Source: Acetobacter aceti
GTDB lineage: Bacteria > Pseudomonadota > Alphaproteobacteria > Acetobacterales > Acetobacteraceae
Direction: 5' to 3'
Length of the DNA: 64,000 bases
NCBI RefSeq assembly: GCF_002005445.1
Contig: NZ_CP014692.1
Span: 1,426,001 to 1,490,000, forward strand
In this document: positions 2,585 through 6,493 of the stretch, one piece after another
Numbering within the stretch: the first letter of the stretch is position 1
Layout: each line of letters opens with the position of its first letter
Program-made: the position numbers and the translations under genes
The notes under the pieces: model-generated
What the model was told of the DNA's origin: nothing
Seen by the model: the letters and a program-made list of their open reading frames with translations, nothing else
The model's database searches: none

Positions 2585-3730
2585 TTACTGAGCCGCGATG
2601 GGAACTTCCGCTCCCACCAGATCAAGGGTCGCTTCCGTATCAGCCGCAAGGCTTTCCGACCGCAGGGAATCCAGTGGTACCAGCGTGTCATCACGTTCGA
2701 AATGCCAGAACGTCCAGCCATTGCAGGATGGAGCGTTCGTCAGCAGCGCACCCAGCTTGTGGATCGAACCGCGCTGTGTCCCACTCACCAGCGTGCCGTC
2801 AGGAGTCACGGTCGCGGAGACACGCCGCTGACGGTCATAAACCACCGTTCCGGCCATGATGAAATTGCGCTCGACCAGACTGCCGAACGGAACGCGCGGG
2901 GCTTCACGCTTCATCGGTGTGGTGGCGACAGCATCCTGAGGCAGGGGTTCTTCGCGTTCGACGCGCTCAGCGGCGGCCCTGGCATAGTCAGGGTGACGTT
3001 CAATGCCGACGAAATGACGACGCAGACGTTTCGCCATGGCGGCTGTGGTGCCAGTGCCAGTGAAGGGATCGAGGATCACATCGTTCTCAGCCGTGGAAGA
3101 GAGCAGCACACGATGCAGCAGGCTTTCCGGCTTCTGCGTCGGGTGCAGCTTCAGGCCGTGCTCGTTCCGCAGGCGCTCATTGCCCGTGCAGAGCGGCAGA
3201 TACCAGTCCGAACGCATCTGAACGTCGTCGTTCAGGGCTTTCATGGCCTGATAGTTGAAGCGATATTTGCTGTCCTGACTGCGGGCGGCCCAGATCATTG
3301 TCTCATGTGCGTTGGTGAAGCGACGGCCGCGAAAGTTCGGCATCGGATTGGATTTGCGCCACACGATATCGTTCAGGATCCAGAAGCCGAGATCCTGCAG
3401 GATCGCACCCAGCCGGAAAATATTGTGATACGAGCCGATGACCCAGATCGTGCCATCCTTCTGTAGAAGGCGACGGGCCTCGCTGAGCCATTCCCGCGTG
3501 AAACGGTCATAGGCTTCCAGATCCGAGAACTTGTCCCAGTCATCATCCACACCATCGACGATGCTGTCATCCGGACGTCGAAGCTCACCACGGAGCTGAA
3601 GGTTGTATGGTGGGTCAGCAAAGATGCAGTCCACGCTCCCTGTCGGCAGGGAGCGCATGACATCGACGCATTCGCCGCAGAGGATTGTGTCGAGCGGAAG
3701 ATCCGAGGTGTTCTTGATAGCGGCGCTCAT
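2585..3730 (-). CDS. ccrM: CcrM-type adenine-N6 DNA methyltransferase (GANTC)
   Basis: 381 residues. Catalytic motif DPPY is at 39-42 and the SAM-binding motif DPFTGTGTT at 221-229, the beta-class order (catalytic motif first). The TQKPESLL stretch at 198-205 and a C-terminal extension containing [19 protein letters not shown] match CcrM enzymes with their added DNA-recognition domain. Family members methylate adenine in GANTC and act as a cell-cycle clock in alphaproteobacteria. Its start overlaps the rnhB stop by 4 bases (ATGA), so the pair is translationally coupled, as in many alphaproteobacteria. The GANTC specificity is inferred from family, not shown here. Confidence 0.95.
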
Positions 3731-4359
3731 GCACGGCCTCCGGTGGCGAGAGTAAGTTCAAGCTGCTTGCGGACAGTGCCGAAGCCGCGGCGATGGTGCG
3801 GTGTGCACCCCTGTGTCGTGATGGCGTTGCGATGAGCGGCGGTGCCGTAGCCTGCGTTCTTCGCCCAGCCATAGCCGGGCCAGCGCGCATCCAGGCGGCT
3901 CATGATTCTGTCGCGGGTCACCTTGGCGAGGATCGATGCGGCGGCGATGGACAGGCTGATGCCGTCACCGCCGACGATCGTACGGACGGGCACATCAAGC
4001 GGTGGTTTGCGGTTGCCATCGACCAGCGCGATGCGGGGAGGGGATGGCAGTTTGCCCACGGCCCGGGTCATGGCGAGCTGCGCGGCCCGCAATATGTTGA
4101 GCTGGAGAATTTCCTCAACCGACGCGGCTGAAATGCCGATTTCGATACCCGGAACGCTCGGCAGACGGGCCGCAATGGCCTCACGGCGAGCCTGCGTCAG
4201 GGCCTTGGAGTCATCAATGCTCGCGGCCAGATCGTCCGGGACGCCCGCGCCGAAAACAACGGCAGCCGCAACGACAGGTCCGGCGAGAGGGCCGCAGCCG
4301 GCCTCATCCACTCCGGCCACGCGGCCTCCATATTCTGTTTCCAGCAAAAAATCCGGCAT
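3727..4359 (-). CDS. rnhB: Ribonuclease HII
   Basis: 210 residues from the ATG at 4359, chosen because GGAAAGGGGA lies just upstream; an upstream in-frame extension to 4503 runs through the leader hairpin and is unlikely. The enzyme cuts RNA of RNA/DNA hybrids and removes misinserted ribonucleotides. Motif [15 protein letters not shown] (16-30) carries the catalytic Asp-Glu pair, followed by DDSKALT and later LVDGN. It is first gene of an operon with ccrM. The leader carries a 15-bp hairpin and many GANTC sites, so expression of both genes may respond to methylation state. Confidence 0.95.
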
Positions 4360-4377
4360 GGTCCCCTTTCCGAAGTC

Positions 4378-4414
4378 TTCAAACGACTCGATATGAATCA
4401 TCGAGTCGTTTGAA
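4378..4414. repeat. 15-bp perfect hairpin in the rnhB-ccrM leader
   Basis: TTCAAACGACTCGAT (4378-4392) and its exact reverse complement (4400-4414) flank a 7-base loop. On the transcribed minus strand it sits a few bases before the rnhB Shine-Dalgarno. No U-tract follows, so it is not a classic terminator; a translational or DNA-level (cruciform, protein-binding) role is possible. Each arm contains a GANTC site and so does the loop. Confidence 0.85.
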
Positions 4415-4521
4415 TCACGATTCGCAATAAAGGAAAACCATTTTGTCCCGTGACCGCGCAAGAGTCGCGAGCAAAAAAAATCCCCGGAAAGGGGAAAAAA
4501 CACTCAGACTCTTCACGAGTC
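4385..4521. promoter_or_regulatory. Cluster of eight GANTC sites upstream of rnhB-ccrM
   Basis: GANTC occurs at 4385 (GACTC), 4395 (GAATC), 4403 (GAGTC), 4412 (GAATC), 4419 (GATTC), 4462 (GAGTC), 4507 (GACTC) and 4517 (GAGTC). Five fall within 39 bases. Random expectation is about one per 256 bases. This is the predicted promoter and leader of the methyltransferase operon, so the enzyme's own product probably modifies its control region. In Caulobacter the ccrM promoter also carries GANTC sites linked to autoregulation. Confidence 0.75.
4473..4495 (-). terminator. Weak hairpin with T-tract, minus strand
   Basis: TCCCC-GGAAA-GGGGA stem, followed on the minus strand by eight T. The stem is short. 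It would back up the stronger terminator of the CsbD-like gene just upstream, insulating the rnhB leader. Confidence 0.45.
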
Positions 4522-4523
4522 GT

Positions 4524-4554
4524 AAAAAAAGAGCCGGATACTGGACCCGGCTCT
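4524..4554 (-). terminator. Rho-independent terminator of CsbD-like gene
   Basis: On the minus strand an 8-bp stem AGAGCCGG/CCGGCTCT is followed by seven T. It begins about 15 bases after the CsbD-like stop codon. Confidence 0.85.
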
Positions 4555-4568
4555 CCTTTATTGCAGGC

Positions 4569-4871
4569 TCAGCCCTTGCGGCGCGGCATCAGCAGCCAGC
4601 CGATGAACGTGCCGACCACCGAGGCGATACCCAGTGAGAGAAGCGGCTTGTCACGCACGAACGACACGCCTTTCTCGACAAGGCTTTCAGTCTCTTCATA
4701 CAGGTCGGCAAATTCCTCACGGGCGATACCGGCGAGCTGGTCAACCTTGCCTTCAGCCTGAAGACCCAGATCGCCTGTCAGGCCACCGGCTGCGTCCTTG
4801 ATGTGACCTTTGGCCTGATCGACGATGCCATGAATTTTTTCTTCCGTGGTGTTGATCTTGTCGTCTGACAT
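4569..4871 (-). CDS. CsbD-like/ElaB-like membrane-anchored stress protein
   Basis: 100 residues from the ATG at 4871, preferred over 4892 because AAAGGA lies nine bases upstream. The N-terminal half (KIHGIVDQAKGHIKDAAGG...) is a CsbD-type helical repeat; the C-terminal half (FVRDKPLLSLGIASVVGTF, then a basic MPRRKG end) matches the single membrane helix of the ElaB/YqjD/DUF883 family. These small proteins accumulate under stress or in stationary phase, and ElaB/YqjD bind ribosomes at the membrane. The combination in one small chain is notable. It stands alone, with its own terminator. Confidence 0.75.
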   Translation of the reverse strand: MSDDKINTTEEKIHGIVDQAKGHIKDAAGGLTGDLGLQAEGKVDQLAGIAREEFADLYEETESLVEKGVSFVRDKPLLSLGIASVVGTFIGWLLMPRRKG

Positions 4872-5098
4872 GTCTGTTTTCCTTTCGAGCATCCTGAGGC
4901 GTCAGTGGGACGCGGAACCGCAATACGGTTCGTGTCGGTGCAGTTGGAACCGATCTCACTGATGATGCAACGCTTTTTGTAGCCAACAGTTTGGAGGTAA
5001 CTTGAATGAGTTTCTTGCGTAAGCCATGCGTTCGCAAGGATACGTGAGTCCGCACCGGCATATTGTGCCCTGAGCGGAAAATCTGTTTGGTGGCCGAC

Positions 5099-6493
5099 AT
5101 GCCAGCCTTACGTCGATCGCAGATCATCGCCCTGACCATTTCCAGTCTGCTGTTTATGGAGCAGCTCGACGGCACCATTCTGGCGACAGCCCTCCCGGCC
5201 ATCGCTTCCTCCCTGCATGTCGATCCGGTTGCGGCTTCCGTAGCGCTGACCTCCTACATCGTCGGGCTGGCTATTTTCATTCCCGCATCCGGTGCGTTGG
5301 CGGATCGCTTCGGTAGCCGCACAACCCTGATGACGGCGATCACCCTGTTCATTGTCTGCTCCATCCTGTGCGGACAGGCGAACAGTCTTCCCATGCTGGC
5401 TTTCGGTCGCATGTTGCAGGGCGTAGGGGGCGCATTGATGGTCCCGGTCGGCAGGCTGGTGCTGCTCCGAAGTGTCGCCAAATCAGAGCTGCTGAAAACC
5501 ATGACATGGATGATGATGCCCGCCACACTCGGCCCGATGCTCGGCCCCGTGCTGGGCGGTTTCATCACCACCCTGCTGTCATGGCGCTGGAACTTCTACA
5601 TCAATGTTCCCGTCGGCCTCATCGGCCTCTATCTGACGTGGAAACATATCCCCCAGTTGCGCGAAACCCGCAGCCGTCCATTCGACTGGCCCGGCATGGG
5701 ACTGGCTGGCGGCGGTCTGGCCTTGCTCTCGTTCAGCGCGGAAATGATCAGTCACAACGCAAAACCCTACTGGCTCTCCGCCATTCTGCTGCTCGCTGGA
5801 GCCTGTCTGTTTCTCTGCTATTTCCGCCACATGAAGCGCTGCCCCAATCCGGTCCTGGATTTCCGGTTGATGGAGGTTCCCACCTTCCGCCTGTCCGTCC
5901 TGAGTGGTGCGGCCTCTCGCCTCGCAGCCGGGTCTTTTCCGTTCCTGATGCCCGCCATGCTGCAGATCGGTTTCGGCCTGAGCCCGGCGCAGAGCGGCAT
6001 GGTGGTCTTTTCTGCCCCAATCGGGGCGCTGTGTTCACGGCTGTATGTGCCACCACTTTTCCGTCGTTTCGGTTTCCGAACCGTGATGATGACCATGGGT
6101 TGGGGCGGTGCGCTCACTTTCGGAGCAATCGCCTGCTTCCAGCCGGGCTGGCCACTCTGGACGCTGACATTGGTGCTGCTGGCGTCCGGCGCCGTGCAGG
6201 CGATCCAGTTTTCGGCCTACAACTCCATCGCTTATGCCGACCTGCCGGAAGAGCGAATGAGCAATGCGACCAGCTTCTACTCCACCTTCCAGCAGATGAT
6301 GCTGTCAGCAGGAATTTGCGTGGCCGCCCTTGCCGTAACGGTGTCGCGCGCCGTTCAGGATCATCCGCAGGCGGTAGCGGCGGATTTCAGGGTGGGGTTT
6401 CTGGTCGTGGGGGCGCTGACGTGCATCGCTGTGCCGGTGGCGGCGCGACTGCGGCCGGATGCGGGGGCTAATGTAAGTGGGTATAAAGGATAA
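5099..6493 (+). CDS. MFS multidrug transporter (DHA2 type)
   Basis: 464 residues from the ATG at 5099; a TTG at 5063 would add twelve. A proton-driven exporter of the EmrB/MdtD kind: FMEQLDGTILATALP in helix 1, the MFS loop motif GALADRFGSRTT between helices 2 and 3, and family motif C-like LGPMLGPVLGGF in helix 5. About 14 hydrophobic segments are visible. No adaptor or regulator gene adjoins it. Substrate cannot be assigned from sequence. It is divergent from the CsbD-like gene across about 230 bases. Confidence 0.9.
   Translation: MPALRRSQIIALTISSLLFMEQLDGTILATALPAIASSLHVDPVAASVALTSYIVGLAIFIPASGALADRFGSRTTLMTAITLFIVCSILCGQANSLPMLAFGRMLQGVGGALMVPVGRLVLLRSVAKSELLKTMTWMMMPATLGPMLGPVLGGFITTLLSWRWNFYINVPVGLIGLYLTWKHIPQLRETRSRPFDWPGMGLAGGGLALLSFSAEMISHNAKPYWLSAILLLAGACLFLCYFRHMKRCPNPVLDFRLMEVPTFRLSVLSGAASRLAAGSFPFLMPAMLQIGFGLSPAQSGMVVFSAPIGALCSRLYVPPLFRRFGFRTVMMTMGWGGALTFGAIACFQPGWPLWTLTLVLLASGAVQAIQFSAYNSIAYADLPEERMSNATSFYSTFQQMMLSAGICVAALAVTVSRAVQDHPQAVAADFRVGFLVVGALTCIAVPVAARLRPDAGANVSGYKG

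Follow-up and report, generated by a model that had tools for sequence, protein, structure and literature searches.

Why should the gene of a GANTC methyltransferase be preceded by a dense array of GANTC sites, and what is the role of a perfect hairpin in the same place? The question is raised by a locus of Acetobacter aceti, whose genome comprises 3,725,037 bases in a single contig; it was analysed within a window of 64,000 nucleotides, that is, the whole stretch of DNA considered here. The unit is transcribed from the minus strand and its first gene is rnhB (3727..4359), which encodes ribonuclease HII (NF000595, 220.2 bits at a cut-off of 167). It is followed by ccrM (2585..3730), and the two genes share an ATGA (3727..3730) in which the rnhB stop and the ccrM start overlap, an arrangement that may allow translational coupling. 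The rnhB stop takes the form ATGA in 40 of the 48 Acetobacter loci that we compared; six have another form, and in two the rnhB frame is interrupted. By profile matches the ccrM product, a GANTC adenine methyltransferase, carries N6_N4_Mtase and RAMA domains (PF01555, 220.8 bits; PF18755, 61.2 bits; both above cut-off), and it matches the Caulobacter CcrM structure 6pbd over residues 14-360 (E 1.1e-144). The NCBIfam equivalog for the Caulobacter-type CcrM, NF050803, spans positions 2-349 of 350 on 2588-3730 and gives 628.6 bits, below its cut-off of 830, so we file the protein, on its domains and structure match, as a CcrM in general and outside that equivalog. With a near full-length match, the product encoded downstream of rnhB is a predicted CcrM methyltransferase. 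Upstream of the unit, also on the minus strand, lies a CsbD-like gene (4569..4892, from a profile match), for which a terminator scan detected a separate terminator-like site at 4531-4548. Past the 3' end of ccrM, a plus-strand open reading frame (1695-2348) gives weak ankyrin-repeat matches.

A preliminary description of this DNA had counted eight GANTC within 137 bp (4385-4521), five of them within 39 bp, and our recount gave the same figures, with sites starting at 4385, 4395, 4403, 4412, 4419, 4462, 4507 and 4517. The first five (4385..4423) were found by a site scan and are conserved in alignment. The sixth belongs to a GANTC followed by TTGCG (4457..4466, minus strand), at the upstream end of the conserved block. 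The last two form an inverted pair (4507..4521), located by the site scan and the leader comparison upstream of a terminator-like hairpin that is followed by eight T (4481..4496, minus strand, terminator scan). The conserved unit is smaller than the eight sites: it comprises the six from 4385 to 4466. The sites 4507 and 4517 lie beyond the terminator-like hairpin, and among the other Acetobacter leaders compared their inverted pair is visible by eye in L082-L086 only.

The density of sites is unmatched in the sampled part of this genome. The expectation of one GANTC per 256 bp, from which the preliminary description had started, proved too high, as the motif is depleted: the window holds 147 copies against 316 expected from shuffles, and the rate in 464 kb sampled from the same genome (the window and 20 stretches of 20 kb, together 12.5% of the genome) is 2.23 per kb. 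The depletion in the window is an indirect hint that the enzyme may methylate GANTC in this organism. In these 464 kb no 137-bp interval outside the locus has more than four sites, compared with eight here. Eight sites were reached in 0.02% of 5000 first-order sequences modelled on the region, and in none of 2000 for which the model also took in the 2 kb flanking the region on either side.

Conservation in sister species was assessed in 49 genomes of the genus, all of which gave a CcrM match; that of G035 (68% complete) was weak, which left 48 loci for comparison; in those from G007 and G027 the CcrM match is partial or split. Within the 200 bp before rnhB and the first 10 bp of rnhB, 44 of the 48 loci contain four to nine GANTC, so the cluster is indeed kept in related species. 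In the same 200-bp span L115 has two sites, and L123, L125 and L126 have none; the genomes of L125 and L126 measure 1.7 and 1.5 Mb. As ccrM is still present in these three loci without sites and in the one with two, the array is dispensable. Across all 48 loci the density of GANTC was 32.4 per kb in the 140-bp leaders and 1.45 in the remainder, a 22-fold difference, while seven control pentamers of the same form gave 0-0.8-fold.

An alignment of 43 leaders, from which the duplicate L097 and the loci lacking the layout (L115, L123, L125 and L126) were omitted, revealed how the sites are conserved. The two sites of the hairpin stem show no variation at any letter in the 43 rows, and the site at 4419 reads GAGTC or GAATC, with G, A, T and C invariant and N variable. 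GANTC-TTGC is found in 45 of the 48 loci, N being C in 42 and G in three. The TTGC(G) box (4457-4461) that adjoins GANTC in these 45 loci is possibly a part of the promoter; the box also occurs inside AGCATCTTGC, which is invariant in ten aligned leaders of the genus groups g42, g60 and g73. By eye, many Acetobacter loci (L093-L124) show an inverted repeat ahead of the leader, e.g., ACCGGGA...TCCCGGGT; its loop contains the CTTGCG box, and its arms vary between species in paired fashion. As a regulon motif GANTC-TTGCG was rejected: the genome contains 26 copies of it, compared with 15 of the pattern in reverse, and besides the locus none of the 26 has more than four GANTC in the 230 bp examined.

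The hairpin (4378..4414, minus strand) is as previously claimed a perfect one, with 15 bp, arms at 4378-4392 and 4400-4414, a 7-nt loop at 4393-4399, and one GANTC in each arm and one in the loop. The minus-strand RNA of 4355-4525 folds at -69.1 kcal/mol (z -5.5), and none of 200 shuffles was as stable. A structured leader does accompany the sites, as 89.4% of the hairpin cells are paired in the 43 rows. There are 44 doubly changed cells, and none of 500 shuffles matched the pairing, the double changes or the covariation score; versions of the hairpin slid along the alignment were 27-42% paired, a comparison that favours the hairpin, since the structure was taken from one alignment row. Five hairpin pairs have double changes. 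Of five measures, two (the number of pairs with double changes and the number of pair types) did not rise above shuffles for either stem of the leader in the 43 rows, and both leader tests are weakened by the fact that related species are not independent. G-U is frequent in the hairpin (one pair has 17 G-U, and two further pairs have 7 and 9 U-G), thus an RNA fits better than a DNA dyad. The leader covariation also speaks against transcription beginning downstream of the cluster.

A second, long-range stem is proposed between a 5' arm at 4427..4439, assigned by folding, partner swaps and covariation, and the rnhB ribosome-binding region at 4360..4371 as the 3' arm, assigned by folding and covariation (both minus strand). 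It is 79.8% paired, with a covariation of 0.383 versus 0.149-0.261 for slid versions and with 38 doubly changed cells versus 34 after a slide of +1. Free folding gave this stem, with at least four of ten bases, in 37 of 44 leaders. In the same 44 leaders pairing with the own long-range partner amounted to -15.3 kcal/mol, compared with -12.6 kcal/mol for partners swapped between species, a difference reached in none of 5000 permutations. Free folding of L087 and L127 showed no long-range stem, and L116, L119, L121, L122 and L124 use a purine tract closer to the start codon. Pairing of the upstream tract with the rnhB ribosome-binding region is less certain than the hairpin. We also considered a switch based on pairing between site 4419 and the 5' arm of the hairpin, which free folding shows in L087 and L127; it was set aside because the own clade carries GAATC at 4419.

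In the rest of the family, 40 more Acetobacteraceae loci, hand-picked from 229 genomes with an rnhB match, contained three to six GANTC upstream of rnhB in 22 cases, two in one case and none or one in 17. Asaia (L005) has five sites and Gluconobacter (L006) four, and other Acetobacteraceae, e.g., Rhodopila and Acidisoma, have one or two. We take the groups with a cluster to be the acetic acid bacteria, and g42, g60 and g73 look to us like Gluconacetobacter and Komagataeibacter. In all 11 loci of g42, g60 and g73, six to nine of 11 bases of the ribosome-binding region pair with the first 25 nt when a tract chosen by pattern is folded; the inner hairpin is weaker in L165. Among seven other folded loci, the ribosome-binding region was paired in L174, L175 and L179 and unpaired in L173, L181, L183 and L189. 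A covariance model built from Acetobacter leaders alone, which scores sequence together with structure, was run over 58 loci. All 11 loci of g42, g60 and g73 were matched, with E between 1.5e-6 and 0.06, as were L180 (0.0024), L115 (5e-4), L123 (0.057) and L179 (0.38), and three Acetobacter loci that repeat the model's source genomes; the other 40 of the 58 had no match with an E of 1 or less. Scanned against 464 kb of the own genome, the model matched the locus alone. A search of 4200-5100 against Rfam returned eight matches, all under the gathering scores, and no family. No description of the leader was found in titles and abstract openings of the open-licence literature, which falls short of proving that it is unpublished.

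Are the sites and the stem one device or two? In the preliminary description they made a joint switch, and they do co-occur and are conserved; however, they are separable in relatives. L173-L176, Gluconobacter L006 and Asaia L005 have four to six sites and lack a hairpin whose two arms both carry one, and L159, L163, L164 and L166 keep the stem with the 3' GANTC lost. L169-L171 have a hairpin of 14-17 bp with GAATC and GATTC in the arms in place of GACTC and GAGTC, thus the N pair was changed on both sides and GANTC was kept. Sites without a hairpin and a stem without its 3' site make the two look separable, and the leader RNA looks like a second layer, distinct from the array of sites in the DNA.

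We then compared loci from the wider class of Alphaproteobacteria. Here rnhB was found in 72 of 80 loci, and outside Acetobacter, Asaia and Gluconobacter only none to two GANTC lie upstream of it. Many of these loci have two to seven GANTC directly upstream of ccrM instead, and the gap between rnhB and ccrM is about 40-280 bp in most. The cluster thus tracks the likely promoter of the ccrM unit, preceding rnhB in loci with overlapping genes and ccrM in loci where a gap separates the two. Counts were made in 69 loci (L009-L080), as L022, L056 and L080 (3 of 72) were dropped for want of upstream sequence. In the 200 bp upstream of ccrM the density of GANTC was 14.5 per kb versus 1.51 elsewhere, i.e., 9.6-fold, with control pentamers at 0.6-2.3-fold; at least two sites were present in 54 of the 69 loci, and none in six. 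Of the 69 loci, 51 have TTGA[CT]-(2-5)-GANTC within the 200 bp ahead of ccrM, and in 41 a second GANTC stands 4-7 bp past it. In the rest of the loci (914,916 bp, both strands) the one-site and two-site layouts had 5 and 0 matches, and control pentamers placed in the GANTC slot gave 0-5 of 69. The most common spacing of adjacent sites was 11 bp (38 of 137). By eye, a layout recurring upstream of ccrM in L024-L079 is TTGACGGC-GANTC-N6-GANT-CATnnT, with a 17-bp spacer; the two-site layout of the 41 loci is a looser version of it.

A second sample of 40 loci, hand-picked from 110 genomes of the class with a match, showed the TTGAC-GANTC layout in 22 and its two-site form in seven, with at least two GANTC in 27 and none in seven; it includes two Acetobacteraceae members with none, and at least one locus repeats the first set (L228 has the same letters as L066). 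The layout is absent in 18 of 69 and 18 of 40 loci, respectively.

Within Acetobacter the promoter itself is less clear, and no sigma-70-like promoter was found by consensus in 4200-5100. Candidates picked by eye were TATAAT-like letters downstream of GACTCTTGCG, CATCTT or ACTCTT at the TTGCG box, and a TTGAC-like -35, none of which holds genus-wide. GcrA (PF07750) scored above cut-off in 48 of 49 genomes, the own genome included, where one GANTC lies in the 400 bp upstream of gcrA (L220/L221 set). Of 48 Acetobacter loci, 47 lack a CtrA-type box, TTAA-(6-8)-TTAA, in the 250 bp before rnhB; the one locus with such a box, L125, is without GANTC in 200 bp. In the genome of L125, G039, the best match to the CtrA model is just 146 bits. 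That the array owes its existence to an absence of CtrA was ruled out, as the own genome encodes a CtrA relative (344.8 bits, just below the 350-bit cut-off). About 400 bp upstream of this relative contain four GANTC (L220/L221 set). GANTC upstream of ctrA has also been counted in PMC8116508, as its consulted portion states.

The preliminary description had further proposed a coupling to hemimethylation at the replication fork. The distance between ccrM and dnaA is about 714 kb in the own genome, or about 38% of the half-chromosome; ccrM lies at about 10% in G001 and at 20-22% in G002, G012, G025, G026 and G048, if the largest contig equals the whole circular chromosome; G040 was left out because of its fragmented assembly. 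A late replication of ccrM is unsupported by its position relative to dnaA in these seven Acetobacter genomes, thus no special replication time backs the fork coupling. The place of ccrM is reported as unconserved in Rhodospirillales (PMC8116508).

Taken together, we consider it fairly probable that this region is an autoregulatory control region of the ccrM unit, in which a methylation-sensing GANTC array at the promoter is combined with a translation-limiting leader. The enzyme's own target sites next to a leader that seems to hide the translation start suggest that CcrM senses and limits its own production. The GANTC array would lie at the promoter and transcript start and report local CcrM methylation to RNA polymerase, probably via GcrA. 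Passage of the replication fork would leave the array hemimethylated and change transcription, which would change again once CcrM restores methylation, and this methylation-dependent change would tend to limit CcrM. In the transcript, the hairpin would be held in the long-range stem covering the rnhB ribosome-binding site, so that rnhB translation would be low, and the low translation may be passed on to ccrM through the ATGA overlap. As parts of this model we infer that methylation alters transcription, that the effect is negative, that GcrA is the reader, where the promoter lies, and that the leader acts on translation. Methylation sensing is taken as most likely because the CcrM is near the solved Caulobacter enzyme, because GcrA is encoded, and because of statements in the excerpted text of PMC3973325: in Caulobacter, ctrA, dnaA, ftsZ and mipZ respond directly to methylation, as most probably does ccrM. 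A bolder version appears possible, but we hold it to be somewhat doubtful: the acetic acid bacteria would have a two-layer switch, epigenetic and RNA-based, in which the same GANTC palindromes serve as DNA methylation marks and as the stem of a leader that masks the ribosome-binding site, this leader being a regulatory RNA family outside Rfam and the array a relocated form of the class-wide ccrM promoter with phased GANTC beside a TTGAC box.

Which other explanations would fit the locus? The array might instead be a GcrA-activated promoter, in which methylated GANTC recruits GcrA and polymerase, so that feedback is positive or the unit is simply kept on, with neither fork timing nor negative feedback. 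According to PMC3667746, GcrA at methylated GANTC recruits polymerase, from which positive and not negative feedback would be expected. GcrA is encoded, many ccrM upstream regions have GANTC beside a TTGAC box resembling a -35 (the 51 of 69 loci above), and in Caulobacter a GANTC lies at about -29 in ctrA P1 and at about -24 in podJ P2 (excerpt of PMC4287350). A published scan of orthologues likewise infers ccrM to be a core GcrA-regulated gene, since many of 13 genomes have an extended GANTC motif ahead of their ccrM orthologue, a motif said to be lost in Caulobacterales and Parvularculales (PMC7987155, in the sections consulted). However, the Acetobacter sites are mostly in the leader, not far from the start codon, with the promoter probably upstream of them; the leader should decrease output rather than increase it, and we consider this reading unlikely.

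The conserved letters might also serve polymerase or transcription-factor binding and RNA folding only, GANTC methylation having no regulatory effect. Invariant blocks free of GANTC do exist, such as AGCATCTTGC in 10 of 10 aligned leaders of g42, g60 and g73. Against this stands the variation of N while the four recognised letters are fixed; other genera, moreover, retain clusters with different neighbours and no hairpin, and control pentamers are not enriched or far less so, both in Acetobacter and in the class. We therefore regard it as improbable. Another reading takes the stem as an RNA copy of the CcrM target, so that CcrM (or RNase HII) would bind the leader of its own unit and thereby block translation. 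It agrees with a stem core, CGACUCG/CGAGUC, that is invariant in 43 of 43 rows, and with the GAAUC/GAUUC of L169-L171, which is still a paired GANTC, but not with the four loci that retain the stem although the 3' GANTC is gone (L159, L163, L164 and L166), and it seems quite improbable to us. That a MucR-type DNA-binding protein shields the array from methylation and creates a local hypomethylated switch is highly improbable, its basis being MucR-occluded promoters in Caulobacter, one of them with four GANTC, and MucR-occluded sites in Sinorhizobium, as reported in the excerpted text of PMC5172544.

The autoregulatory reading would matter since the amount and timing of CcrM set how long GANTC sites stay hemimethylated. 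A conserved dense array upstream of whichever gene leads the ccrM unit points to direct methylation sensing by the enzyme's own gene, and the leader would bring translational control to an epigenetic regulator. The array is suited to site-by-site testing in vinegar bacteria, which are harmless.

How does this locus compare with known systems? In autogenous ribosomal protein leaders a long-range stem masks the ribosome-binding site, and in the Acetobacter leader an upstream tract likewise pairs with the Shine-Dalgarno region; unlike there, no ligand or protein is known for the Acetobacter leader, and no Rfam family was above its gathering score in 4200-5100. The original study of the Caulobacter ccrM promoter is said to have described a CtrA-driven promoter with GANTC sites, which are reportedly fewer than in the Acetobacter array. 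As in Caulobacter crescentus, GANTC stands in the ccrM control region, where an effect of methylation on ccrM was called most probable (PMC3973325, in the part consulted). Activation of ccrM by CtrA in Caulobacter (PMC3667746) and binding of CtrA to the ccrM promoter in Sinorhizobium (PMC4433202) are stated in the excerpts of these papers, whereas the Acetobacter loci, with the one exception, lack a CtrA-type box, have rnhB first in the unit and carry a structured leader over the ribosome-binding site. An earlier survey counted GANTC in 500-bp windows, from which methylation control could not be derived (PMC2877005). The locus resembles the GcrA/CcrM promoters of ctrA P1, podJ and mipZ in having GANTC upstream of the gene and GcrA encoded in the genome, and differs from them in having up to eight sites, mostly near the start codon, with GcrA only a putative reader. 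GcrA-type control of ccrM has already been inferred in PMC7987155, and what goes beyond the account in its consulted sections is the TTGAC-GANTC-N6-GANTC layout, the cluster upstream of rnhB and the leader RNA; the Acetobacter array with its structured leader would accordingly be best described as a probable variant of CcrM/GcrA-type control.
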